Positions 4,850 to 24,508 of a DNA stretch of 24,508 bases are shown here, piece after piece. A program made the translations under genes and the position numbers. The notes below the pieces were generated by a model that had not been told where the DNA came from, made no database searches, and saw only the letters and a program-made list of their open reading frames with translations. The DNA is from a virus, in IMG/VR virus record IMGVR_UViG_3300007344_000231, positions 1 to 24,508 of that record; one strand, given 5' to 3'. Position 1 is the stretch's first letter. The number at the start of each line of letters is the position of its first letter.

Positions 4850-5111
4850 AGTTCTTCTCCGCCTTTTTCGCTTTGTCCTGGCTGGCCTTGAGGCGCTTTG
4901 CCAGGTCGGCCTGGTATTCGGCATTGCGCTTTGCTTCAGCTCGCAGGGTGGTGATGGTGGCCTGGCTCTCGGTATTGGCCTTGATGGCGTCATCCTTGGC
5001 CTGGGTCTCAACCCGCTTCTCTTCGCGAAGGTCCTCAACCCGCAGTTGCTGAATGCCAACCAACAGAAGGCCCACCAGCGCGATGATGATTGCCGCAGCG
5101 ATCGCCTTCAT
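4725..5111 (-). CDS. Rz-like inner-membrane spanin
   Basis: The 128-residue protein has an N-terminal inner-membrane anchor (KAIAAAIIIALVGLLLVGI, residues 2-20). A long charged periplasmic coiled coil (22-92) follows, and then the NSKPVRDWAAQPLPDGLRG tail typical of Rz-type spanins (DUF2514/Rz group). It pairs with the overlapping Rz1 lipoprotein to disrupt the outer membrane. The ATG at 5111 overlaps the holin stop by 4 bp, which fixes the start; a longer upstream reading frame is the holin's shadow. Confidence 0.85.
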   Translation of the reverse strand: MKAIAAAIIIALVGLLLVGIQQLRVEDLREEKRVETQAKDDAIKANTESQATITTLRAEAKRNAEYQADLAKRLKASQDKAKKAEKNFEDLKRNSKPVRDWAAQPLPDGLRGKAGSSDKDPGRKAGSP

Positions 5112-5649: not shown

Positions 5650-6405
5650 TCACTGGCTTGCTCTTTCTGCCGGTAACGACGATTGCCACATAGAGGCGGC
5701 CTTAAGCGGCCCCACTCGAAGCTGCATTAATGACCCCTCCAGAGACTTAAGCTCCGTCACACGAAACTTCGGCCCGACCTCAAATCCGTGCCTTTCACCA
5801 ATCAAAACTTGGTCACCGTAAAAGCCTAAAACTACATAATCGCCAGCTACCCAATAATAATCATTAGTTGACGCATATTTACTTCCCGCGGCGGAAAAGC
5901 ACAACAAAAAAAAGGCAGCCCCACATAGATAGTATATATACCGACTGGTCGCATGAAAGTTCTTGATAAATTGTTGTTCTTTTTCGTCATCCTGACCCAA
6001 ATCATTAGTAAACTCTATCGTGAACTGTTTAATAACCAGAGCAGAAAATATCCCGATAAAGATAAACACACCAAATATCCAACGCCACATAGGCGTCATC
6101 GACAGATTGAAAAGAATCAGAGCCCCATAGGTGAAGGCAGCAGCACCCAAAATCACCTTTCGTCGAGGCGAAGCGAACTGCACTCCCGAGATGATAACCA
6201 CCATCAGGAACGTGACCATTATTGCCGGATAAACTGTCTTTACGACAGGCAGAATCCCGAAAGAGGATATCTGCAGGAACTCAATAGGCGCTCCAAAAAA
6301 TATGAGTCGACCCATTTCATAGAATGCGAACAATACATAAGCCAGCGGGCCAAGCACCGCCGCAGCTGACAAAATGAAAGTCACGAGTTTTTTTCCATCC
6401 TGCAT
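5650..6405 (-). CDS. Polytopic membrane protein, probable moron
   Basis: I do not recognise this 251-residue protein. It has about five membrane helices: residues 8-30, 50-74, 84-101, 107-126 and 155-172. A soluble C-terminal domain of about 80 residues (YYWVAGDYVVLGFYGDQVLIGERHG) follows and may be periplasmic or cytoplasmic. The gene is clearly A+T-richer than its neighbours and sits between the Q-type antiterminator and the tandem terminators, a typical site for lysogenic-conversion cargo. AGGGAAAAGAA precedes the ATG. A role in superinfection exclusion is possible, but only by position. Confidence 0.7.
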   Translation of the reverse strand: MQDGKKLVTFILSAAAVLGPLAYVLFAFYEMGRLIFFGAPIEFLQISSFGILPVVKTVYPAIMVTFLMVVIISGVQFASPRRKVILGAAAFTYGALILFNLSMTPMWRWIFGVFIFIGIFSALVIKQFTIEFTNDLGQDDEKEQQFIKNFHATSRYIYYLCGAAFFLLCFSAAGSKYASTNDYYWVAGDYVVLGFYGDQVLIGERHGFEVGPKFRVTELKSLEGSLMQLRVGPLKAASMWQSSLPAERASQ

Positions 6406-6416
6406 TTCTTTTCCCT

Positions 6417-6445
6417 GAAATATTGGTGAATCTCTGACGAAGCAA
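6417..6445 (-). promoter_or_regulatory. Candidate promoter for the moron/late region
   Basis: On the minus strand TTGCTT and TATTTC are separated by 17 nt, directly downstream of the Q-like gene. This is where lambda has pR'. The -10 match is weak, so this is a suggestion. Confidence 0.3.
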
Positions 6446-6457
6446 CTTGGACTAAAT

Positions 6458-6811
6458 TTAGGCAGCGTGCCGCTTAGATTCTAGCGCGCCATCGACCCAA
6501 GCGACACCTGCCTTCCAAAGTTGGCGAGTCTTCTCTTCGCCGAAACCCAGCTTCTTGCCGACCTCCATAAGCGAAGTGTCGCGGGTGGTGTAGTACTTCA
6601 TCAGCACCTGACCGCATTCGGGATAGCGCTTGAGCAGCCGCCCCATCAATCCATCGATCATCAGCGCGTCGTCGTCGGTGATCATCGGCGAAAGGATGGT
6701 GTTTTCGCGAGAGGCGCAGCAGGACACACCCGAGCCTAGGACAACCCAGCGGCCCCAGTGCTCCAGCAGATCCTCGGCGGTACGTTCTTTGAAACTCGGT
6801 GTGAAGGCCAT
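6458..6811 (-). CDS. Q-like late antiterminator (Phage_antitermQ family)
   Basis: This 117-residue protein is the likely switch to late gene expression. Q proteins load on RNA polymerase near the late promoter and let it pass downstream terminators. The pattern fits the PF06530 type: an N-terminal LLEHWGRWV segment, a central ITDDDALMIDGLMGRLLKRYP, and an RNA polymerase sigma-like helix-turn-helix (DTSLMEVGKKLGFGEEKTRQLWKAGVAWVDGAL). The start has AGGGGAT upstream and follows the previous stop by three bases. Its position, last in the early operon and ahead of two strong terminators and the lysis genes, is that of lambda Q. Confidence 0.8.
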   Translation of the reverse strand: MAFTPSFKERTAEDLLEHWGRWVVLGSGVSCCASRENTILSPMITDDDALMIDGLMGRLLKRYPECGQVLMKYYTTRDTSLMEVGKKLGFGEEKTRQLWKAGVAWVDGALESKRHAA

Positions 6812-6814
6812 GGC

Positions 6815-7132
6815 TCAATCCCCTGTGAAGTTGGTGCCGCCGGCGCCGCGGCGGTTGTTTTCGTTGTATTGCGCTTCAGCACCGGAAGGCTTGAAGCAGT
6901 TGAATTTCTCTATCTGGTGCTCGGCAGCCTGGAGCCGAATGCTCAGCTGCGTCACCAGCACCGCCAGCGGCAGCGCCTCACCAGTTTCAGCGGTTACCCA
7001 CCCTGAGGCGTTGCACTGCACGCAGGCCAGGTCGTGGAAGACACCCTTGATCACCGCACGACCACGGCATGCCGGGCACTTGGCCAGGTCGAGCTGGGCG
7101 GCGCGGAATGCTGGGCCGTGTAACCTCTTCAT
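6815..7132 (-). CDS. Small zinc-ribbon phage protein
   Basis: The 105-residue protein has a four-cysteine zinc-binding site: CPAC at 19-22 and CVQC at 37-40, like a DnaJ-type or zinc-ribbon knuckle. A helical segment (LPLAVLVTQLSIRLQAAEHQIEKF) and a disordered Asn/Gly-rich tail follow. It overlaps the preceding gene by 4 bp and is followed by Q after three bases, so it belongs to the early operon. Similar small Cys4 proteins are common before Q in Pseudomonas lambdoids; the function is unknown to me. Confidence 0.75.
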   Translation of the reverse strand: MKRLHGPAFRAAQLDLAKCPACRGRAVIKGVFHDLACVQCNASGWVTAETGEALPLAVLVTQLSIRLQAAEHQIEKFNCFKPSGAEAQYNENNRRGAGGTNFTGD

Positions 7133-7398
7133 GCCTTCACCCAGCGGCGAACAACAAGCTCACACCCTGACATCAGCGCGACGCCGTTGCATTTACCGAC
7201 ATGCGACTTCCGAGACCTGCATCCGCAATGGCAAAGCTTGCGGGACTTCGGTACCAGCGCCTCCATATAGCGGATGTGCTCAGGCAGGCCGCCGACCTGG
7301 CCCCAGCCCTCCATTCCGCCGCGCATTGCAGCTGACCTCGCTGCTGGAGACAGCGAATTCAGGTCGGTCTGGGCGGGGTCACTGCTCTTTTTCATCAT
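7129..7398 (-). CDS. Small Cys-rich phage protein
   Basis: The 89-residue protein has a Ser/Ala-rich N-terminus and a compact Cys cluster at residues 56-79 (CHCGC, then HVGKC and GCE), which could bind zinc. The start is the first of two ATGs at 7398 with GCGAGG about 7 nt upstream. That ribosome binding site overlaps the stop of the internal recombinase. It is coupled to the next gene by ATGA. Function is not recognised. Confidence 0.65.
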   Translation of the reverse strand: MMKKSSDPAQTDLNSLSPAARSAAMRGGMEGWGQVGGLPEHIRYMEALVPKSRKLCHCGCRSRKSHVGKCNGVALMSGCELVVRRWVKA

Positions 7399-7400
7399 TT

Positions 7401-8681
7401 TTAAACCTCGCCTATGGTTGATTCTTGAATGGCCTTGCAGCCCTTATGCGCCGTGGCCTCCAGCGAATTACCGGAATCTTCAAATCTAAAGCCGGTCAAT
7501 CCGTGAATCGCTGCAAAGCCTTTCTGATCTAGATGCGCGTGCCACTGCTCCAGGGCATCACGCTTGCGACTCATCACGTCCGACTGGATGTACACCTTCA
7601 CGTTGTGCCCCATGGCGTGGTTGATCAGCAGCTCGCCAATCAGGTGGTCGATGCCGAGATCTGCCCAGCCTGTGCGGGCCACCTTGCGCAGGTCATGACT
7701 GGTCCACTCGCCCTGCCCCAATCGACGGAACACGGCGCAGCCCTGAGCCTCGCCCAACGCCTTGCCGTTGCGCGCCGGGAACATGCATTGACCCTCATAG
7801 CCTCGGATGTACTGACCTTCGCGGTACTGAGTCAGCAGCGCGCACACCTGCTCGGTCAGGGGCAAGTGATGCTCGACACCGGTTTTTGTGTTCTCGGCCG
7901 GGATGAACCACTCGCGTTCGGCAAGGCTGATGTGCGACCAGCGGGCCATCCGGGTTTCGCCGATCCGCGTGCCGTGACAGAGCATCATCAGCGCGAGCAT
8001 CGAATCAAGCGGGGCAGTGACCATGACGTCAGCCAGCTGCCCAAGCAGACCTTCCAACTGCACACCGCGAAGACGGGATGGCTTGATGCCGACCTTCGCC
8101 TTGGAGAAGTCGTTGAACCGAATCGCGGCCATCGGGTTGGACGTGATCATCCCCAGCTTGGCCGCCTGCCGGAATGCCAAAGCCAGCAGTTGGAATGCCG
8201 AACGCACGTAGTCGATGGAAACCGTCTCCTGAAGCGGCCACATCAGCAAGTTATCGAGCGCAGCCTTGTCGATGGCGATCAGGGGAAGGTCGCCCAGGCG
8301 CGGTTTCAGGTGGCACTTGATCAGCGACGCACCGGTGTTCTTGCGCTTGGCGGACAGGTTGCGATCGCGCGACATGCGATCGGCGAACCAGTCCAGCAGT
8401 TCGCCGGCGTTGTTCCATTTGGATAGGCTCGCCCCTTCGCCAGCGGCCAGGCGCAGACGAATCGCCGGGAGCGCAGCGACCACCTGGCTATGAAAAAGCT
8501 CAGGGTAAGTGCCGATGTGGTTCCACTCCCCCTTCAGCACCAGGAACCATGAACCGCCATTGCGGGCCTTATTGAAGCGCAGGTATAGGCCCTTGTTCTC
8601 GAGGTCACGCAGATCCTGCACGTTGCCCGTGGCCTGCCGTTTGATTTCAGCCTGGGTAATCTTCACGGCGGCAGTCGTCAT
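7401..8681 (-). CDS. Internal tyrosine recombinase, P4-integrase-like
   Basis: This is a 426-residue tyrosine recombinase. Catalytic residues can be read as Arg239 (CHGTRIGETRMARW), Lys266 region (TKTGVEHHLPL), His329/Arg332 (TSHDLRKVARTGW), His355 (LLINHAMGHN) and Tyr364 (VYIQSDV). The LLINHAMG-then-Tyr spacing and C-terminal RRDALEQWHAHL-type helix resemble P4-type integrases. The N-terminal 80 residues resemble a DUF4102-like arm-binding domain. The ATG at 8681 has GGGAGG 7 nt upstream and overlaps the previous stop by 4 bp. It lies deep inside the early operon, far from the prophage end and its own integrase, so an integration role for this prophage is doubtful. Confidence 0.88.
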   Translation of the reverse strand: MTTAAVKITQAEIKRQATGNVQDLRDLENKGLYLRFNKARNGGSWFLVLKGEWNHIGTYPELFHSQVVAALPAIRLRLAAGEGASLSKWNNAGELLDWFADRMSRDRNLSAKRKNTGASLIKCHLKPRLGDLPLIAIDKAALDNLLMWPLQETVSIDYVRSAFQLLALAFRQAAKLGMITSNPMAAIRFNDFSKAKVGIKPSRLRGVQLEGLLGQLADVMVTAPLDSMLALMMLCHGTRIGETRMARWSHISLAEREWFIPAENTKTGVEHHLPLTEQVCALLTQYREGQYIRGYEGQCMFPARNGKALGEAQGCAVFRRLGQGEWTSHDLRKVARTGWADLGIDHLIGELLINHAMGHNVKVYIQSDVMSRKRDALEQWHAHLDQKGFAAIHGLTGFRFEDSGNSLEATAHKGCKAIQESTIGEV

Positions 8682-8950
8682 GCGGGCACCTCCCGCAACT
8701 TCTGTTGTTCTGGGGTGAAGTCGCCGCGCAAGGGCATCAGATTCTTTTCGTGCTTGATTGCCCACTCACCACGGAAGCGGCACATCCACCCCCCAATGCC
8801 CGCAGCCGGGCGGAACTGATATTTCTTCCCAGTCGCCGGGGAGACCACCACCTCACCTGGCAGCACGAATCGAACGAGTTCAGCCGTCTGGCCCATGTAC
8901 CCTCCGGATATCACCAGTGCCAGGTCGCCGGGCTTGAAGTTATGGCTCAT
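8678..8950 (-). CDS. Small hypothetical phage protein, beta-rich
   Basis: The 90-residue protein begins with a KOW/SH3-like beta pattern (FKPGDLALVISGGYMGQTAELVRFVLPGEVV). A Gly/Trp/Arg-rich segment (AAGIGGWMCRFRGEWAIKHEKNLMPL) and a polar tail follow. It overlaps its neighbours by 4 bp on both sides, so it is a genuine operon member. No function is assigned; a small nucleic-acid or protein-binding barrel would fit. Confidence 0.65.
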   Translation of the reverse strand: MSHNFKPGDLALVISGGYMGQTAELVRFVLPGEVVVSPATGKKYQFRPAAGIGGWMCRFRGEWAIKHEKNLMPLRGDFTPEQQKLREVPA

Positions 8951-9363
8951 GCTGCAGCCCTCGTTTGTGGTTGAAGTAGGTAGGCGCGGATCGCCTCAAT
9001 GGCGTCGAAGTGCCCACGGCAGACGATGGCGAGGTAACCCTGATCGGTCAGCGCCTGCAGGTAAGCGTCCTGGGCCGGGGAAACAGCGGCGTCATGCGGC
9101 GCGGTAGCCTTGAACTCGATGTACAGCCCGAAATACCCGCCGCGGGCCATCGGCAGCACAAGGTCAGGAACACCGGCCTTCACGCCCTGCTCTTTCAGCT
9201 TGACCGCCACCAGCTTGTGCCGGTGCCCACCGTTTGGGACGTGGAAGATCAGCTTCGCGGCGGCGGGATAGCGCAGGCTGATTTCCTTGATCAGGGCTGC
9301 CTGCTCCAGACCTTCCCGGTCCACGGCCTTGGCACGCGCCGGCTTCACGGTGAACGTCTTCAA
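8947..9363 (-). CDS. VRR-NUC domain endonuclease (TTG start)
   Basis: This 138-residue protein is a stand-alone VRR-NUC (PF08774) nuclease of the PD-(D/E)XK fold. Visible active-site elements are Glu20/Gln21 in the first helix, Pro66-Asp67 (GVKAGVPDLVLP) and Glu83-Phe-Lys85 (YIEFKA), then SPAQDAYLQALTDQGYLAIV. Phage VRR-NUC proteins are believed to act as structure-specific or Holliday-junction nucleases, filling the place of RusA or NinG. The start is a TTG at 9363 with GGAAGG about 8 nt upstream, overlapping the preceding stop (TTGA). Downstream it is coupled by ATGA. Confidence 0.85.
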   Translation of the reverse strand: MKTFTVKPARAKAVDREGLEQAALIKEISLRYPAAAKLIFHVPNGGHRHKLVAVKLKEQGVKAGVPDLVLPMARGGYFGLYIEFKATAPHDAAVSPAQDAYLQALTDQGYLAIVCRGHFDAIEAIRAYLLQPQTRAAA

Positions 9364-9656
9364 AGTTTCACCTTCCCTTCGCGAATGAGGATGTCCTGGG
9401 TGCGCATGACGCCCTCGGCCAGGAATAAACGGATCTCGTACTTGGTCAGCTCGCCAGGTGCGCGCAGGCGCCCGTCGGCGATGTCGTGGCAGTAACCGCA
9501 GGCCCAGGCGGCCTGGAAGTCGTTAGGCTTCATGCCCATGCCGCAGGTGCCGGCCAGGCGGTAGTGCGCCAGGACGGTGGTTGACGGCTCGCAAGAGCAC
9601 CCAGGGAATCGGACCTGGCACTCTCGATCCCGGGCGGCGGCGGTGAGTCTGCTCAT
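9360..9656 (-). CDS. DUF1364 (HNH-like) phage protein
   Basis: The 98-residue protein starts MSRLTAAARDRECQVRFPGC and has the family pattern of paired cysteines, TTVLAHYRLAGTCGMGMKPND and WACGYCHDIADGR. This is DUF1364 (PF07102), a Cys/His-rich fold resembling HNH nucleases and found near replication genes of lambdoid phages. Nuclease activity is inferred from the family, not shown. I chose the ATG at 9656, which overlaps the helicase-loader stop by 4 bp; the longer upstream frame is shadow. Confidence 0.85.
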   Translation of the reverse strand: MSRLTAAARDRECQVRFPGCSCEPSTTVLAHYRLAGTCGMGMKPNDFQAAWACGYCHDIADGRLRAPGELTKYEIRLFLAEGVMRTQDILIREGKVKL

Positions 9657-10336
9657 CGTGAACCACCTGCAAGCGCCGCGCGAAGTTCGGCGATAGCGCC
9701 CTTGCCGACCTCTGGGGTGATTCGCCCGTCGACCTTTGCGGGAAGCGCCTTGGGCATTGGCTGAAGCGGCAATCCATCGAGCAAGCGCCGAATGGTGATC
9801 GTGTAGTTCCGGTCGAACAGCTTGAGGCTGAGCGCAGCATCGAGTTTGTTCAGGCTCTCGAAACCGCATTCTTTGGCCGCGTGCCAGACAGCGTCGTGCG
9901 ACCACCTGCCCTGCCCCGCCATGCTCGGATGGGCGTTTCGAACAGCTTCACGGTGTGCAGCCGCCAGCGGAGGAAGCCCGAGCATTTCCGGGGTTGGCTT
10001 GCACCACTCGATGAACTGCCCAGGGCTGGGGATGAAATCAGATACCTGCTTGCGAGCCTTGATCATGCCGAATTCAATCTGCCCCTGAGTGCGGATGCCT
10101 TCATCGAGGAACGCCTGCATCCACTGGACCTTGGCGGCGCGGTAGGTCTCCTTGTCCGGCCACGCCTGCCTCCAGGCCGAACGAATCAGTCGCAGTTCGG
10201 TGAACAGGTCGTTGATTGCCACGGCCATCTGGCGGCGACCTTCGTCCTGGGGAGCCTGAATCTCGTCCTTCGGGATAAACTCGCCGGCGGCGGGGTTGGC
10301 CCAAAGGCCCTGGGTTACTGCGGCGACCTGTTTCAT
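9653..10336 (-). CDS. Replication protein P-like DnaB helicase loader
   Basis: The 227-residue protein follows the initiator gene and matches lambda-P type proteins (PF06992). It has an early INDLFTELRLIRSAWRQAWP segment, WMQAFLDEGIRTQGQIEFGMIKARKQVSDFIPSPGQFIEWC, which is the family hallmark, and a polar C-terminus. P recruits the host DnaB helicase to the initiator at ori. A GTG codon one position upstream of the ATG is an alternative start; both overlap the initiator stop. It is coupled to DUF1364 by ATGA. Confidence 0.85.
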   Translation of the reverse strand: MKQVAAVTQGLWANPAAGEFIPKDEIQAPQDEGRRQMAVAINDLFTELRLIRSAWRQAWPDKETYRAAKVQWMQAFLDEGIRTQGQIEFGMIKARKQVSDFIPSPGQFIEWCKPTPEMLGLPPLAAAHREAVRNAHPSMAGQGRWSHDAVWHAAKECGFESLNKLDAALSLKLFDRNYTITIRRLLDGLPLQPMPKALPAKVDGRITPEVGKGAIAELRAALAGGSR

Positions 10337-11085
10337 CACGATTGCACCCCGTTCTGCCAGTCGATGCTGTCGTCATCAAAATCGGAAGCGGCCGGGGGCT
10401 TCTGGCGGATAGGGGTGACGTTGTTGGCTGCCGCACGGACCTTGTCGTTGTTGACCCACTTGACCAGCATGCTGACCCACTCAGCCTGGGTATTGACCTG
10501 CCCTTGAGGCTCGTAATGAGCGGTAAAGGCTACGCGCACCTCCTCGGTGAACAGGTCGCGGGCCAGCCCACGGTGGAATGCGTAGGTGGTGAGCAGCTTT
10601 TCGTCAGGCACCCAGTCGAGGGTCATCTCGCTGGGCATACGAGGGTCGACAGGCTCACGCGCAGAGAGAGGGTCTTTATTCTTCTCTACATCTTCTTTAG
10701 GTAACGCGCCGCTAACGTTCGCAGCGTTACCTTTTGCGTTACCGGCTTTGTGGTTTGCCACCCGTTTAGCCGTGAGAAGCCTGTTTTTAGCGGTCTTGCC
10801 GTTATGCCGGTCAAAATGCGGAAGGCTTATCACCCCTTCCGCTTCGAGCATCCAATCGACAGACTTCATGTGTTCGCAGAAACCGGTAACGCCAACCAGA
10901 CGGTCGAGTAACTTTTTACTAACGCTCGGAGCGTTACCGTTTTCGGTTTGCTGATCGAACCATCCCCATACACGCATCAGCTTGCCGACCACAGCATCTG
11001 GGTCGATGTCAGCCAGGTCCGCGATCTGGCAAACCTCGGGTTTATCCAGGGTGGTGAGTTCGAATTTGATCCAATCGCCGGCCAT
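10336..11085 (-). CDS. Replication initiator, O-like / DnaT-like
   Basis: The 249-residue protein has an N-terminal winged-helix-like DNA-binding part (DWIKFELTTLDKPEVCQIADL, KLMRVWGWFDQQ; residues 4-95) and a basic linker with repeated Gly-Asn-Ala (residues 50, 115 and 119). Its C-terminal domain (about 152-215, DWVPDEKLLTTYAFHRGLARDLF ending EWVSMLVKWV) resembles the DnaT/PriC-like domain of phage initiators. It probably binds the phage origin, which appears to lie inside this gene. The ATG shares one base with the antirepressor stop (TAATG). The next gene is the P-like loader, completing a lambda O-P pair. Confidence 0.8.
   Translation of the reverse strand: MAGDWIKFELTTLDKPEVCQIADLADIDPDAVVGKLMRVWGWFDQQTENGNAPSVSKKLLDRLVGVTGFCEHMKSVDWMLEAEGVISLPHFDRHNGKTAKNRLLTAKRVANHKAGNAKGNAANVSGALPKEDVEKNKDPLSAREPVDPRMPSEMTLDWVPDEKLLTTYAFHRGLARDLFTEEVRVAFTAHYEPQGQVNTQAEWVSMLVKWVNNDKVRAAANNVTPIRQKPPAASDFDDDSIDWQNGVQS
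10673..10938. repeat. Candidate replication origin: GGTAACGC iterons and A+T-rich flank
   Basis: Inside the initiator gene the octamer GGTAACGC occurs exactly five times in 240 bp: on the plus strand at 10700-10707 and 10885-10892, and on the minus strand at 10724-10731, 10736-10743 and 10931-10938. Two 20-bp units (10712-10731 and 10919-10938) differ at only two positions and form inverted repeats TAACGyTC-GAGCGTTA. An A+T-rich, strand-biased tract lies at 10673-10699. Lambda ori has the same logic: iterons in O followed by an A+T-rich element. Confidence 0.5.
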
Positions 11086-14972: not shown

Positions 14973-15250
14973 TGCTTCTCCGCAAGCACAGGACGCCCAC
15001 CGCTCTTTAACAGCCAGCGCAACAAACAACAGACCGCATTGCCTCTACCGGCGACCGGCGAGCAGACAGGCCCGAAAGCCTGCCAACGACAGGGAAAACC
15101 TTGTACGGCTGCTCGATGGTGAAACGCCAGAACCGAGTGAATGACCCGGCAAGCAATGCGCCCCGCCCCTTCCGGCGGCAATTGGACGGACAGCATCACT
15201 GCTGCACCTTGGCGACAGGGTGTAGCGGGATGACAACCGAGGGCATGAAG
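14973..15250 (+). other. Rightward leader before the first gene
   Basis: This 278-bp stretch holds boxA, a CAGGC/GCCTG hairpin, and one small open frame at 15141-15233 (30 codons, start MTRQAMRPAPSGG). The stop of that frame overlaps a possible ATG at 15230 for the next gene (ATGA). It lacks a good ribosome binding site and is weakly supported. Confidence 0.5.
15001..15012 (+). promoter_or_regulatory. boxA antitermination element in the rightward leader
   Basis: CGCTCTTTAACA is a consensus boxA, the NusB/NusE-binding RNA element of rRNA leaders and lambdoid nut sites. It starts 29 bp after the last operator, at the beginning of the rightward transcript. No clear boxB hairpin adjoins it; CAGGC-CCGAAA-GCCTG at 15066-15081 is the nearest candidate. 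Confidence 0.65.
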
Positions 15251-17228: not shown

Positions 17229-17673
17229 CTTTGAGCAGGTTCATAATATCGCCGTCTTTGATTGTGTGTGATACGGAAGACGACCCAAACACAGTAGCTA
17301 AATCGTTATGCGCGATTAACTTATTTCTATATGTCTTTATATTTAGGGCCTGATAACGACCCTTTAGCTCATCGAATTCAGAGCGCAAAGCGTCGTTGGC
17401 ATATGTGCGGTACTTATGTTCTAAAAAATCTAGAGACAAGTTCTCATTAGACCCAAGAGATTTCGAATCGAAAACCGCAGAAACTCGCGTCAATATACTA
17501 ATGAACATGGATTTCTGGATGATGCTAAACACCGGAGTAATATTTTTATTCAAAATCTCCGTCGAAGCCGACAAGCAGTAAAGCTGCTCGTATAGCTGAA
17601 CCTCCCTCCTGATGTCGGAGATGTATGAGTTGTAACGCGATAGTTCGGCTAGCGCTGTTTTTAGATCAAACAT
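17092..17673 (-). CDS. HEPN / AbiU2-like protein, candidate abortive-infection effector
   Basis: The 193-residue protein is helical with A+T-rich codons unlike its neighbours. Its central part reads FISILTRVSAVFDSKSLGSNENLSLDFL, then YQALNIKTYRNKLIAHNDL. The RNKLIAH segment is an R-x5-H motif as in HEPN ribonucleases, and the layout resembles AbiU2-type HEPN proteins (PF18734). HEPN proteins often act as RNases in toxin and anti-phage systems. The ATG at 17673 has GGGG 6 nt upstream; in-frame ATGs at 17679 and 17697 are alternatives. It runs against the plus-strand operon and lies downstream of a small two-helix membrane gene. Assignment rests on motif reading. Confidence 0.65.
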   Translation of the reverse strand: MFDLKTALAELSRYNSYISDIRREVQLYEQLYCLSASTEILNKNITPVFSIIQKSMFISILTRVSAVFDSKSLGSNENLSLDFLEHKYRTYANDALRSEFDELKGRYQALNIKTYRNKLIAHNDLATVFGSSSVSHTIKDGDIMNLLKATHKFCIHLCQCLPGGIETVLIVEPWQLKTGDDGLELLRRLQAGK

Positions 17674-17723
17674 TTTCATCCCCGATTCCGGCTCCATGCC
17701 GGTTACCCGTAATAGCCCATATC

Positions 17724-17744
17724 AACGAATCACGCCAGCCGCCA
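17724..17744 (+). repeat. 21-bp direct repeat, copy 1
   Basis: AACGAATCACGCCAGCCGCCA matches the copy at 17990-18010 at 19 of 21 positions. The two copies bracket the small membrane gene (17750-17944) closely. Confidence 0.6.
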
Positions 17745-17749
17745 GCGCC

Positions 17750-17944
17750 CTATCGCCTTCCGTTCGTATTGGGAATAAAGCTACCCAAGAAAAATACAGC
17801 CGCAGGCCCTATGAGCCAAGCGGCGGTCGTTCCCGGACTGACAATAGGTACAGCGATAGCAATTGCAAACAGGCCTATTCCTGCCCACAGCCGCCTACGC
17901 GGCGTGAACCACTCACGGAACGCTTCAAGCTTTTTACCGGCCAT
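17750..17944 (-). CDS. Small two-helix membrane protein
   Basis: The 64-residue protein has a basic N-terminus (MAGKKLEAFREWFTPRRR), two hydrophobic segments (about 19-36 and 41-57) and a short polar end (PNTNGRR). The ATG at 17944 has an ideal AAGGAGGT ribosome binding site. It lies 5' of the HEPN-like gene on the same strand with a 50-80 bp gap, and the methyltransferase start is divergent. It could be a partner of the HEPN-like protein or an independent moron. Two direct repeats flank it. Confidence 0.65.
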   Translation of the reverse strand: MAGKKLEAFREWFTPRRRLWAGIGLFAIAIAVPIVSPGTTAAWLIGPAAVFFLGSFIPNTNGRR

Positions 17945-17989
17945 TACCACCTCCTTGTTTGATAAGCAGCAAAGCATATCACCCACTTT

Positions 17990-18010
17990 AACGAACCACG
18001 CCAGCCGGCA
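17990..18010 (+). repeat. 21-bp direct repeat, copy 2
   Basis: AACGAACCACGCCAGCCGGCA is the second copy of the 17724-17744 repeat. It overlaps the leader of the cytosine methyltransferase. Confidence 0.6.
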
Positions 18011-18020
18011 AGGATCCCCT

Positions 18021-20066
18021 ATGTCCGCACAACAGAAGAAACACCCCTTCGATTTCAAAACCCAATACGGACTCGGCTTCAACCCTCAGGACGATGAGAT
18101 CGTTGCCGACTTCTTCTGCGGCGGTGGCGGCGCCGGTACCGGGCTGGAAATGGGCCTGGGCCGCACGGTAAACGTGGCGAAGAACCACAGCCCGCAAGCG
18201 ATCAGCATGCACACCGTGAACCACCCGGGCGCGAAGCACTTCACCACCGACGTGTTCGAGGGTGATCCGGACACCGAGTGCGGCGGTAAGGCCGTGGGAT
18301 GGTTCCACATGTCGCCGGACTGCACCCATCACAGCCAGGCGGCCGGCGGGCAGCCGCGCAAGCGCGAGATCCGCAACCTGTCGTGGATCGGCCTCAAGTG
18401 GGCTGGCATGAAGCGTCCCCGGGTGATCAGCCTGGAGAACGTGAAGCAGATCCTGCAGTGGGGTCGGCTCATCGCAAAGCGCGACAAGGCCACCGGACGC
18501 GTGGTGAAACTCGGCGGCGATGTTGCCGCACCGGGCGAGGTTGTGCCGGTGGGCCAGCAGTTCCTGATCCCTGACCCGAAGCAGCGCGGCCGAACCTGGC
18601 GCCGCTTCGTGGCTCTGCTGGAAGGCATGGGCTACGTCGTCGAGTGGAAGGTGATCAAGGCCTGCGACTTCGGCGCGCCGACCAGCCGCGAACGCCTGTT
18701 CATGATTGCCCGGTGCGATGGGCAGCCCATCGTTTGGCCGGAGCCGACCCACGCCAAGAACCCTGCCAAGGGTCAGCAGAAGTGGAAAACAGCCGCTGAC
18801 TGCATAGACTTCACCGACCTGGGCAAAAGCATATTCGGACGCAAGAAGGACCTGGCACCGGCCACCCTGCGCCGCGTAGCCAAGGGCATGAAGAAGTTCG
18901 TTATCGACAGCGCGGCCCCGTTCATTGTGCCAATCGCCAACTGGTCGGGAGAGACAGTGCAGTCGGCCGGAGAGCCGCTGCGCACCATCACCTCCTACCC
19001 AAAGGGCGGCGCCTTCTCGGTGGTCAGCCCCATCGTTGCCCCGGCAACACACCAAGGCAGTGACCGCATCAATGACCCGCTTGAGCCGCTGCCGACAGTG
19101 ACCTGCGCGAACCGCGGCGAGCTGACGCTGATCAGCCCGGTGATGGTTGGGGCCGGTGGCCCGGAGTACTCAGGAAAGCCGGTGGGCATGGACCAGCCGG
19201 TGGGCACGCTGATGACCCAGAACCACCGCGCGATCGCTGCGGCACACCTGGTGAAGTTCCGCTTCAATGACGCGGGCAAGGCGCTGGATGAGCCATTGCC
19301 AACCATCACCAGCGGCGGCAACTATCAGCGCCCGGCCGGGGCCGCACATGCCATGGCCATCTCCACGGTGTTCATGGCCCAGATGAACGGCGGCTTCAAC
19401 ACCACCGCCGCCAAGAGCATCGAAGACCCGATGACCACCGTAACGAACACCGGTAGCCAGCAGCAGCTGGTGGCGGCGAACCTGGTGCACCTGCGCGGCA
19501 ACTGCGATGCACGGGACGTTAACGACCCGCTGCACACCGTCAGCGCCGGCGGCCAGCACCACGGGTTGGTCAGCGCATTCATGGAGCGGGCCTTCGGCGG
19601 CAGTGTTGGCCAGGGCCTGGAAGATCCAGCGCCCACTATCACAGCCGGCGGCGGTGGCAAGAGTTCGCTGGTATCGCTGACCCTGTCGCCAGAGCATGAA
19701 GCGGGTGCCCTGCGCGTTGCAGCGTTCCTGATCAGCTACTACGGCACCGAGAACATCAGCGCTTGCGACTCGCCGGCGCCGACGATCACCACCAAGGACC
19801 GCCTGGCCATGGTCACCGTTATGGTCAAGGGCACGCCCTACGTGATCGTCGACATCTGCCTGCGGATGCTCAAGCCGTCCGAGCTGTACAAGGCCCAGGG
19901 CTTCCCGGCCGACTACATCATCAGCCACGGCGCCGATGGCAAACCGTTCACCAAGACCCAGCAGGTGCACATGTGCGGCAACAGCGTCAGCCCGCCGCCG
20001 ATGGCTGCGCTGGCACGGGCCAACGATCCATGGCGCACTGAGCAACGCCAAGCACGCGCCGCGTAA
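18021..20066 (+). CDS. DNA C5-cytosine methyltransferase with internal repeats
   Basis: The 681-residue enzyme should transfer methyl groups from S-adenosylmethionine to cytosine C5 in phage DNA, protecting it from host restriction. The motifs are complete: motif I DFFCGGGGAGTG (30-41), motif IV SPDCTHHS with catalytic Cys101 (Pro-Asp-Cys instead of Pro-Pro-Cys), motif VI LENV (138-141), motif VIII TSRERLFM (221-228) and the closing GNSVSPP (653-659). Between about 315 and 595 there are eight units with the core P-x-x-T-(I/V/L)-(T/S), in place of an ordinary target-recognition domain. The usual length is 330-450, so the repeats explain the excess. The ATG at 18021 has AAGGAT 5 nt upstream. 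No cognate restriction enzyme is visible. Confidence 0.9.
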   Translation: MSAQQKKHPFDFKTQYGLGFNPQDDEIVADFFCGGGGAGTGLEMGLGRTVNVAKNHSPQAISMHTVNHPGAKHFTTDVFEGDPDTECGGKAVGWFHMSPDCTHHSQAAGGQPRKREIRNLSWIGLKWAGMKRPRVISLENVKQILQWGRLIAKRDKATGRVVKLGGDVAAPGEVVPVGQQFLIPDPKQRGRTWRRFVALLEGMGYVVEWKVIKACDFGAPTSRERLFMIARCDGQPIVWPEPTHAKNPAKGQQKWKTAADCIDFTDLGKSIFGRKKDLAPATLRRVAKGMKKFVIDSAAPFIVPIANWSGETVQSAGEPLRTITSYPKGGAFSVVSPIVAPATHQGSDRINDPLEPLPTVTCANRGELTLISPVMVGAGGPEYSGKPVGMDQPVGTLMTQNHRAIAAAHLVKFRFNDAGKALDEPLPTITSGGNYQRPAGAAHAMAISTVFMAQMNGGFNTTAAKSIEDPMTTVTNTGSQQQLVAANLVHLRGNCDARDVNDPLHTVSAGGQHHGLVSAFMERAFGGSVGQGLEDPAPTITAGGGGKSSLVSLTLSPEHEAGALRVAAFLISYYGTENISACDSPAPTITTKDRLAMVTVMVKGTPYVIVDICLRMLKPSELYKAQGFPADYIISHGADGKPFTKTQQVHMCGNSVSPPPMAALARANDPWRTEQRQARAA

Positions 20067-23317: not shown

Positions 23318-24307
23318 ATGCGACCGCGCAAGAAGGACCGGCACCTGCCGGCGTGCATGTACCAGAAGCACGGCGCCTATTACTTGGTCCGCAAGGGCAA
23401 GTGGTTGCGCCTCGGCACAGAGTTTCAGGCGTCCCTCGCTGAGTACGCCATGCTGCTGGACAAACGCAGCCTGGGCGGGATGCCCAAGCTGATCGACGAC
23501 GCGCTCGAGCACATGCGCACCAGGAAGAAGCCGGCGCTGAAGCCGAACACGCTCAAGCAATACGAGGCGGCGGCCGAGCGATTGAAGGAAAACTTCGCCG
23601 ACTTCGAGCCGCGCGAGGTGCTTCAGCGGCACGTCGTCGCGCTCAAGCTGCACATGGCGGATACGCCGAACATGTCGAACCGGGTGATCTCGGTACTGCG
23701 CGCGGTATTTACCTACGCGCTGGAGCAGCAGATTGTTGATTCGAATCCGTGTATCGGCGTACGGCGGCACCTGGAGCACAAGCGTGACAGGTACATCACC
23801 CACGGCGAGTTCCAGGCGATCTGCGCCAACTCAAGTGACAACATGCGCGTCATCTATGAAATGTGCTACCTGACCGGCCAGCGTATCGGTGACGTCCTGG
23901 CCATTCGGTTGGCCGACATCAGCCCCGAGGGCATCGCCTTCAAACAGGAGAAGACGAACGCTAGGCTGCTGGTGCAGATGACGCCAGACCTGGAAGACCT
24001 GGTGGCCCGGGCAAAGGCGCTTCCACGGAAGATCCGCGGGCTCACTTTGTTCTGCTCGCCTCGCGGCGGAAAGCCGGTGCATTACAGCTCGGTCAAGGAT
24101 GCATTCGCGATCAGCTGCAAGAAGGCCGGGGTCGAGGATGCCAGCCTCCACGACCTCCGTGCGAAGTCGCTTTCCGATACGGACGACCAGGGCAACGACG
24201 CACAAAAGCTCGGTGGCCACACCGATGCCAAGATGACGCAACGTTATCTGCGCCTGCGCAAAATCAACGTAGGCCTGCCGCCGACAATGCCTAAAAAATC
24301 CCTGTAG
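23318..24307 (+). CDS. Prophage integrase, tyrosine recombinase
   Basis: The 329-residue enzyme inserts and excises the prophage by cutting att sites through a 3'-phosphotyrosine link. The N-terminal 65 residues are basic and bind arm sites (PRKKDRHLPACMYQKHGAYYLVRKGKWLRLG). A core-binding domain covers about 72-150. Catalytic residues are Arg189 (TGQRIGDVL), Lys212 (EKTNA), His278 and Arg281 (SLHDLRAKS), His301 (LGGHTDAKM) and Tyr310 (TQRYLRL). GAGGTGA precedes the ATG. It is the last gene before host mutS, so an att site should lie within or just after it. Confidence 0.93.
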   Translation: MRPRKKDRHLPACMYQKHGAYYLVRKGKWLRLGTEFQASLAEYAMLLDKRSLGGMPKLIDDALEHMRTRKKPALKPNTLKQYEAAAERLKENFADFEPREVLQRHVVALKLHMADTPNMSNRVISVLRAVFTYALEQQIVDSNPCIGVRRHLEHKRDRYITHGEFQAICANSSDNMRVIYEMCYLTGQRIGDVLAIRLADISPEGIAFKQEKTNARLLVQMTPDLEDLVARAKALPRKIRGLTLFCSPRGGKPVHYSSVKDAFAISCKKAGVEDASLHDLRAKSLSDTDDQGNDAQKLGGHTDAKMTQRYLRLRKINVGLPPTMPKKSL

Positions 24308-24358: not shown

Positions 24359-24508
24359 ATGACAGACCTTTCAAGCCACACTCCAATGATGCAGCAGTAC
24401 TGGCGCCTGAAAAACCAGCACCCTGATCAATTGATGTTCTATCGCATGGGCGACTTCTACGAGATCTTCTATGAAGACGCGAAGAAGGCCGCCAAGTTGC
24501 TGGACATC
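24359..24508 (+). CDS. mutS: DNA mismatch repair protein MutS (N-terminus only; cut by window edge)
   Basis: The 50 visible codons read [20 protein letters not shown] and then [20 protein letters not shown], the mismatch-binding N-terminal domain of MutS. The Gly-Asp-Phe-Tyr-Glu segment is the conserved mismatch-recognition region just before the Phe-X-Glu element. MutS recognises mispairs and recruits MutL. It is a host gene and marks the prophage boundary. Its own promoter may have been replaced or moved by the insertion. No clear Shine-Dalgarno is seen. Confidence 0.95.

Follow-up and report, generated by a model that had tools for sequence, protein, structure and literature searches.

The window, i.e. 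the whole stretch of DNA analysed here, is a virus record of 24,508 nucleotides (24.5 kb). The feature under study is located at positions 7401–8681 on the minus strand and encodes a tyrosine recombinase of 426 amino acids, as judged from the frame, Pfam, the alignment and the structural model. Within its operon the genes follow the order cII-like, Ant/Rha-like, O-like, P-like, YbcO, VRR_NUC, phrog_2529, recombinase, phrog_28528, phrog_5085 and Q. Upstream of the recombinase, and likewise on the minus strand, lie an O-like replication initiator (10336–11085), a lambda P-like helicase loader (9653–10339), a YbcO-type HNH nuclease (9360–9905, true start probably around 9656), a VRR_NUC nuclease (8947–9363) and the small gene phrog_2529 (8678–8950). 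Downstream, on the same strand, follow the variable small gene phrog_28528 (7129–7398), the Zn-ribbon gene phrog_5085 (6815–7132) as downstream partner, and the gene for the late antitermination protein Q (6458–6811). An earlier note on this DNA had proposed a second intact tyrosine recombinase deep within the early lytic operon, translationally coupled to its neighbours. Both points held: the frame of 426 codons is open and lies between the O/P-like genes and Q, its start shares an ATGA overlap with phrog_2529, and its stop stands 2 nt before the ATG of phrog_28528. No sigma70 promoter-like site was found at 6300–9000 of the window.

At the other side of the window a boundary integrase of 329 amino acids is encoded on the plus strand (23318–24307), which is likely the lysogenic integrase. 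It ends 51 nt before the start of the host mutS gene (24359–24508, plus strand), whose MutS domain I is recognized from 24359 (E 1.9e-17), corroborating the boundary integrase beside mutS that had been noted before. Prophages of the mutS-cinA type are the subject of PMC2647930. As the window ends in the large terminase region, the opposite end of the prophage lies outside the view.

The recombinase matches the Phage_integrase family (PF00589) at residues 208–368 with E 2.5e-15 and 57.1 bits against a cut-off of 27.1. The seven catalytic positions R239, E242, K266, H329, R332, H355 and Y364 are identical in all 97 aligned sequences, that of the window among them, and are also invariant in a separate alignment of 23 sequences. 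The full set of catalytic residues claimed earlier is thus present, and a loss of the catalytic tyrosine in close relatives, which the note had named as counting against its reading, was not seen (Y kept in 97/97). By its residues the recombinase appears catalytically complete, and DNA cleavage and strand exchange are predicted. The AlphaFold model (mean pLDDT 79.7, pTM 0.49) comprises an N-terminal part, a core-binding domain and a catalytic domain, followed by a C-terminal tail (residues 397–426) with pLDDT below 50. The top Foldseek match was lambda Int (1z1b, E 4.1e-10, 364 alignment columns), and VIA-align returned Xer, Brujita Int, XerH, Tn1549 Int and lambda Int at Z 13–19, mostly over residues 86–386. 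Taken separately, the lambda core-binding domain gave Z 13.1 (93 residues) and the lambda catalytic core Z 13.2 (149 residues); SroF of phi3T was also among the structural matches (Z 12.2). For residues 1–80 a folded part is predicted, which most of the structural matches do not cover. The label ‘P4-like’ used in the earlier note was not confirmed: no Pfam arm domain, the P4-type family included, was listed in the recombinase even at E 5, and in structure it comes closest to lambda Int. A sequence search against solved structures gave no match at E 0.001, no match to a defence family was found for the recombinase, and a protelomerase partner (ResT-TelK catalytic domain) was found in 0 of 16 named records.

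Relatives of the recombinase are widespread. By tblastn, 263 phage records carried a match, 165 of them at a query cover of at least 80%, and among plasmid records the corresponding numbers were 348 and 38. The scan of viral contigs confirmed 259 relatives, the best 80 of which form the viral-contig set. Scanning genomes yielded 40 loci, of which 39 belong to Pseudomonas and a distant one to Rugamonas. Among 97 Pseudomonas-type loci with at least 3 kb on each side, 95 have early genes upstream of the recombinase, 96 have Q or late genes on its downstream side and 94 show both; the Zn-ribbon gene was found downstream in 90. O, P or DnaB downstream and the large terminase upstream were each seen in 0 of 97. 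The arrangement is consequently conserved in many Pseudomonas prophages, a point that the earlier note had proposed to check. The set of 97 loci and that of 128 loci used below were not dereplicated; various counts exclude L001 and L002, which duplicate the window, L049, which stops at the gene, the frame-shifted L075, L113 with its Ns and the truncated L138.

The position is shared by most but not all relatives, as some distant named relatives depart from it. In pPL-38ph, p114-2, VPHZ6, H905, K303 and PARCL1pr the recombinase stands in a rightward operon after leftward genes, and terminase or packaging genes follow it. In all but one of these six, a repressor or regulator is annotated among the leftward genes. 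Exceptions are the Vibrio Va p16 relative (33% identity), which adjoins a tail-region gene and the host thrS-infC genes, R19R, where many early genes are located downstream of the recombinase, and 237E40-1 and Aeromonas 59.1, where the recombinase is close to the record end. In the truncated locus L138 (P. syringae PA-6-8C) the recombinase is fused at about residue 91 to genes that by eye resemble tail genes; this junction is an ordinary prophage deletion.

With respect to the question whether the recombinase is itself the lysogenic integrase, PF00589 matches were counted in 48 records, 32 of which held at least two and 16 one. The second match was located at a median of 127 bp from the record end, and within 1.2 kb of it in 22 of 26 IMG/VR records; in the same 26 records the recombinase was at least 11,270 bp away from any end. 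Thus, a gene at the prophage end beside att, as expected of a lysogenic integrase, was not found for the recombinase, the Va p16 relative excepted. A ParA-type match (PF13614) was present in 10 of the 48 records, and in nine of these the recombinase was the sole PF00589 match, while four ParA-bearing records have an additional annotated recombinase or invertase. Three of the nine are plasmid submissions (P. lundensis pPL-38ph, V. parahaemolyticus p114-2 and an A. veronii plasmid); the tenth, G014, has two PF00589 matches, and its ParA hit lies in a longer frame. The presence of the recombinase is independent of the mode of lysogeny, and the recombinase is probably not the lysogenic integrase. 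In a tree whose rows were picked by similarity and in which long branches meet, 35 sampled recombinases separated from seven second integrases (99/99). Of the suggestion that the gene is a captured satellite integrase, a recent capture finds no support in this separation. Lysogeny and the ends of prophages are often called from genes annotated as ‘integrase’, a label that is probably wrong for this large family.

Inspection of the 3' end of the gene unveiled a bipartite DNA element. Block i (7467–7499, minus strand; TTGACC...GGTAAT with the core ACM-N6-RGA) lies in the codons of the C-terminal tail and is the proposed arm-type part. Block ii (7396–7420, minus strand), the proposed crossover part, covers the last codons, the stop and the ribosome-binding site of the next gene; it reads CAACCATAGGCGAGGTTTAAAAATG in the group of the window and, e.g., AAATTAATCATATAAGAGGATTTTAAA in the pPL-38ph group, and in different relatives it is coding, spans the stop codon or lies past it. 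The position directly 3' of the site is an accessory position, occupied in the window by phrog_28528, and the 109 genes that directly follow the element fall into 13 clusters, with 62 of them in the Zn-ribbon cluster. Synonymous codon identity over 63 non-redundant relatives has a mean of 0.66 for the gene and peaks at about 0.88–1.0 in windows near codons 391–396 and 413–422. Across a broader set, the final ten usable codons outrank all 352 internal windows in synonymous conservation. The last ten codons of the Zn-ribbon gene (41 windows) and of TerL (575 windows) likewise exceed their own internal windows, and d was 0.55 for the first ten codons of cII, 0.50 for the first ten of TerS and 0.44 for the last ten of TerL (10 sequences for each terminase). 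Since the ends of the Zn-ribbon and TerL genes are conserved too, and the starts of cII and TerS no less strongly, conservation at a gene boundary alone is unspecific, and block i, which is internal to the gene, appears more telling. AGA accounts for 3.9% of the Arg codons, and 58 of 110 AGA codons (87 genes) share one distance from the stop.

Both motifs were found in 105 of 110 loci with at least 60% identity, in 13 of 18 with 50–60% and in 14 of 35 below 50%, the latter all belonging to the pPL-38ph group. Every locus holding both has a pair of blocks spaced by 87, 86–87 and 87 bp in the three identity classes, respectively; counting only the last match, the spacing was 87 in 92 of 105 loci. 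Distances were also measured from an anchor at the catalytic site, which could be placed in all but five of 128 loci. In the other 123, block ii lies at 89–90 nt, while the stop ranges over 81–132 nt. For 19 distant loci, with a motif list that was widened after their inspection, block ii was found at 87–90 nt in 13, at 99 in two and at 78 in one, and was absent in three. The pattern ACM-N6-RGA missed 22 of the 128 loci, and one of its 106 hits (L089) fell outside the tail. An inverted repeat in the element is weak only. The next best match to the 25-mer had at least seven mismatches in the scanned loci, most of which are at most about 21 kb long, and no phage scanned had its accessory gene flanked by two copies of block ii. 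RNA structure in the 3'-terminal region found no backing, as no pair had both sides changed and no Rfam match was obtained. In L091 (Aliivibrio phage H905) about 95 bp just after the recombinase, comprising the region of block ii and the first part of the following gene, are directly duplicated.

Copies of the element also stand free of the gene. In 3.04 Mb scanned, the two-block pattern at a spacing of 87 gave 144 hits, 136 of them at recombinase 3' ends, and the control spacing of 72 gave zero. The remaining eight hits comprise five free-standing ones (in L190, L191 and L192) and three that resemble chance. A scan of 20 Pseudomonas genomes for the core gave 37 matches with up to two mismatches: 18 exact matches and two with one mismatch were at recombinase loci, and 17 others (five with one mismatch, twelve with two) compare with six for a control pattern. 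The five places with one mismatch are two full recombinase loci (L189, L193) and the three free-standing ones. L190, L191 and L192 keep tail codons only, beginning at about residue 369, 387, 395 or 396; the catalytic domain is absent, and no recombinase of this family was found in the 12–13 kb around L190 and L192. An exact free-standing core was not found in the scan of viral contigs. The free-standing sites occur in two Pseudomonas genomes; L191, in the second of these, is a prophage remnant in which the tail codons are followed by Zn-ribbon and Q. L190 (genome G037, contig C20, 6355–10475) holds four sites in one orientation within about 4.1 kb, namely three pattern sites and one degenerate copy that keeps more of the gene. 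These four sites best match the 3' ends of L126, L003, L162 and L112, i.e. different recombinase types. The array surrounds a LysR regulator and an MpaB-type oxygenase and adjoins a SIR2-domain gene and an HNH gene; the neighbours of L192 are a beta-lactamase-fold gene, HipA and a chemotaxis receptor. Because such copies lie in bacterial chromosomes without the enzyme, the DNA at the 3' end looks like the enzyme's own working site, and we regard the free-standing copies as the decisive fact for reading gene and element together as a recombination module.

L190 and L192 (genome G044, contig C17, 6641–7053) share a unit of 415 bp with 87% identity that ends within block ii; beyond it the sequences diverge, and the chromosomal settings are different. 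Its first ~100 bp match DNA before or overlapping the starts of small-terminase genes in 18 loci as well as the first bases of the linear phage records F10 and MD8, the terminase of MD8 starting at base 27, and are therefore described here as a cos-like region, a putative cos. The middle 195 bp had no other match among the loci compared except for a 28-bp piece in L190 itself. The cos-like region is thus joined to a recombinase-type site in two genomes, and neither a recombinase nor a terminase gene lies beside it. A 436-bp unit as a whole was present in no phage or plasmid record searched, which held parts of it only, and a core repeat at another end of L192 was not found. These units suggest that other DNA may exploit the recombinase. 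The link to satellites drawn in the earlier note is hence retained in reversed form, as it is small chromosomal elements that carry the site of the recombinase. As a separate observation, a 54-bp repeat at 4953–5006 and ~6553–6606 of L192 flanks the beta-lactamase-fold gene.

The slot before the Zn-ribbon gene was compared between phages. This gene is present in 16 phage records, four of which have the recombinase, the other 12 representing ten distinct phages. Eight of these were fetched, and the gene directly before the Zn-ribbon gene was identified by Pfam as NinG in five, RusA in two and DUF1064 in one; phi2 and D14E are counted as NinG phages solely from their annotation. Each of the eight comparator records has one PF00589 match, and block ii is absent before their Zn-ribbon genes (best match 7–9 mismatches of 22). 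In turn, NinG, NinB, RusA, RecT and Erf were each found in 0 of 41 recombinase-bearing records, several of which may be fragments (the 48 records minus L008, L013, L027, L038, L044, L074 and L078), and NinG is common in Pseudomonas phages, where 125 records match. The recombinase thus alternates with NinG/RusA in the slot before the Zn-ribbon gene. It shares with NinG/Rap, RusA and NinB of the lambda nin region the place before the Zn-ribbon gene and Q, whereas the protein families are unrelated and never occurred together with it in the 41 records.

From these results, a role of the recombinase on replicated phage DNA, i.e. on dimers or multimers, is the best one remaining. We lean, somewhat more than not, towards a site-specific recombination module of the lytic phase that acts on its own 3' site and joins or resolves phage genomes. 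Accordingly worded as a proposal, a lambda-Int-like recombinase would be expressed from the early operon and would recognize the bipartite element through block i in the tail codons and block ii, with the crossover at the stop and ribosome-binding site. During replication, copies of the site on different molecules or within a multimer would be recombined, so that phage genomes would be joined or resolved before packaging. We infer that the protein binds the site and exchanges strands there, as well as where the crossover falls and what the substrate is. Cre/loxP of P1 and Xer/dif work with one site per genome in the joining and resolving of circles, and the recombinase would work alike, since one site per genome suits such reactions. 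Lambda-type packaging requires concatemers, according to PMC3784561. None of five usual recombination and junction families was found in the phages considered here, and a dedicated site-specific enzyme would be another solution. If the proposal is true, site-specific recombination can replace homologous recombination in the handling of genomes before packaging.

Four other explanations were considered. The alternation in the nin slot is what would be expected of a general junction-processing enzyme with little sequence specificity that replaces NinG/RusA in homologous recombination or at forks, and the absence of NinG, NinB and RusA from all 41 records fits equally well. Against it speaks an element of fixed spacing that accompanies the gene and also stands free, and 18 of the 41 records additionally hold a VRR_NUC nuclease; we consider this explanation improbable. 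The element and its free-standing copies would suit a second integrase with its own attP, which inserts the phage or site-bearing elements at other chromosomal places: the fold is lambda-Int-like, the layout resembles attP, the free-standing sites, one set of which is arrayed, could mark past insertions, and the Va p16 relative lies at the border of host genes. Against it speak the distance of at least 11 kb from the record ends in 26 records, the early and late genes flanking in 94 of 97 loci, the finding that all 18 exact core matches in 20 Pseudomonas genomes are recombinase loci, and the nine ParA-bearing records in which the recombinase is the sole PF00589 recombinase; this explanation, too, is unlikely.

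The two other readings concern exchange at a linker and regulation. The first sees in block ii a linker for the homologous exchange of modules combined with a ribosome-binding site, in block i a constraint on the protein, and in the free copies leftovers of decayed prophages. It would explain the 13 clusters among the 109 following genes, the conservation of other gene boundaries, the ribosome-binding site within block ii, the prophage remnant L191 and the degenerate copy in L190 that keeps more of the gene. We nevertheless regard it as doubtful, as the spacing is fixed wherever the stop falls, one 415-bp unit of cos and site lies in two chromosomal settings and ends within block ii, three of the five free-standing pattern hits lie in one 4-kb stretch and belong to different recombinase types, and eight phages with NinG, RusA or DUF1064 lack the element in front of this Zn-ribbon gene. 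Furthermore, the protein could have kept the recombinase fold for regulation, binding DNA at the 3' end of its own gene and controlling the Q/late switch in analogy to MrpR/SroF. The repressors MrpR and SroF of the SPbeta group represent this fold in phage biology, SroF of phi3T is among the structural matches, the element precedes the Q cassette, and MrpR is described as a repressor with this fold in PMC10516654. According to the same paper, MrpR has lost most of the active site and keeps three of the seven catalytic residues, whereas all seven are invariant in the present family; no promoter-like site was found at 6300–9000, and free-standing sites joined to a cos-like region are ill-suited to a switch of late genes, which leaves regulation as a very remote prospect.

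Returning to the lytic recombination module, the site may also serve other DNA: cos-plus-site elements could be joined to phage DNA or moved in trans, and the module probably acts in trans on small satellite-like elements. A further-reaching and clearly more speculative version, which we put forward tentatively, is a mobilisation run by the phage, in which the recombinase replaces the nin-region enzymes, handles multimers and recombines elements of cargo, cos and site in trans, while the elements accumulate in arrays like that of L190 and the phage packages them, in a manner resembling integrons or satellites. If true, the cos-plus-site units would be minimal satellites that borrow both the packaging and the recombination machinery of their helper.

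Compared with known systems, the module resembles lambda integrase/attP in its complete active site, in a two-block site that adjoins the 3' end of the gene and in the best Foldseek match. Unlike lambda integrase, the recombinase is located between P and Q instead of at the prophage end, 32 of 48 records have another PF00589 gene, and the recombinase is also present in ParA-bearing records without one. It differs from Cre/loxP and Xer/dif in its extra N-terminal domain, the two-block element and its place in an early lytic operon. The action on dif-like sites of the host (28 bp in Xer/dif systems) that had been suggested earlier gained no support: no dif-like 26-mer with up to three mismatches was present in the window. 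The L190/L192 units resemble phage satellites with a helper-type cos in that they combine a cos-like region with an attachment-like site; different is that the latter is the site of the lytic recombinase of a phage, and the mobility of the units is putative. PseuP_224 has a 71% identical internal ‘site-specific integrase’ in the same place, reported as part of the lysogeny/replication cluster, and a further integrase at another position (PMC10305613). The gene arrangement is hence already in print, and the accessible part of that paper gives no function, site or distribution for the gene. In a search of a limited literature library, descriptions of the family, its site, the alternation with NinG/RusA and the free-standing sites were not found.

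Several further features of the operon and the window were recorded. The Zn-ribbon gene phrog_5085 (6815–7132), which precedes Q in recombinase, NinG and RusA phages alike, is weakly similar to the Lar restriction alleviation family PF14354 (E 0.0074, below the cut-off). Conserved 12-mers, GAACGGGGTGCA, were tried as binding sites and rejected, as they correspond to iteron-like repeats spaced by 22 bp in the O-like gene. Copies inside the O-like genes of relatives (L010, L038, L041 and others) are spaced by 22 and 41 bp, several relatives have an inverted copy, and the window holds one exact copy (10342–10356); these repeats look like origin iterons. CGCTCTTTAACA was found upstream of the recombinase in 26 of 52 long loci, and its copy at 15001–15012 of the window resembles a boxA/nut antitermination element. 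Finally, the plus-strand frame at 17625–20066 encodes a C5-methyltransferase (phrog_116), which probably begins some way into the listed frame and whose middle, judged by eye, carries several alike short units around P-x-x-T-[IV]-T.
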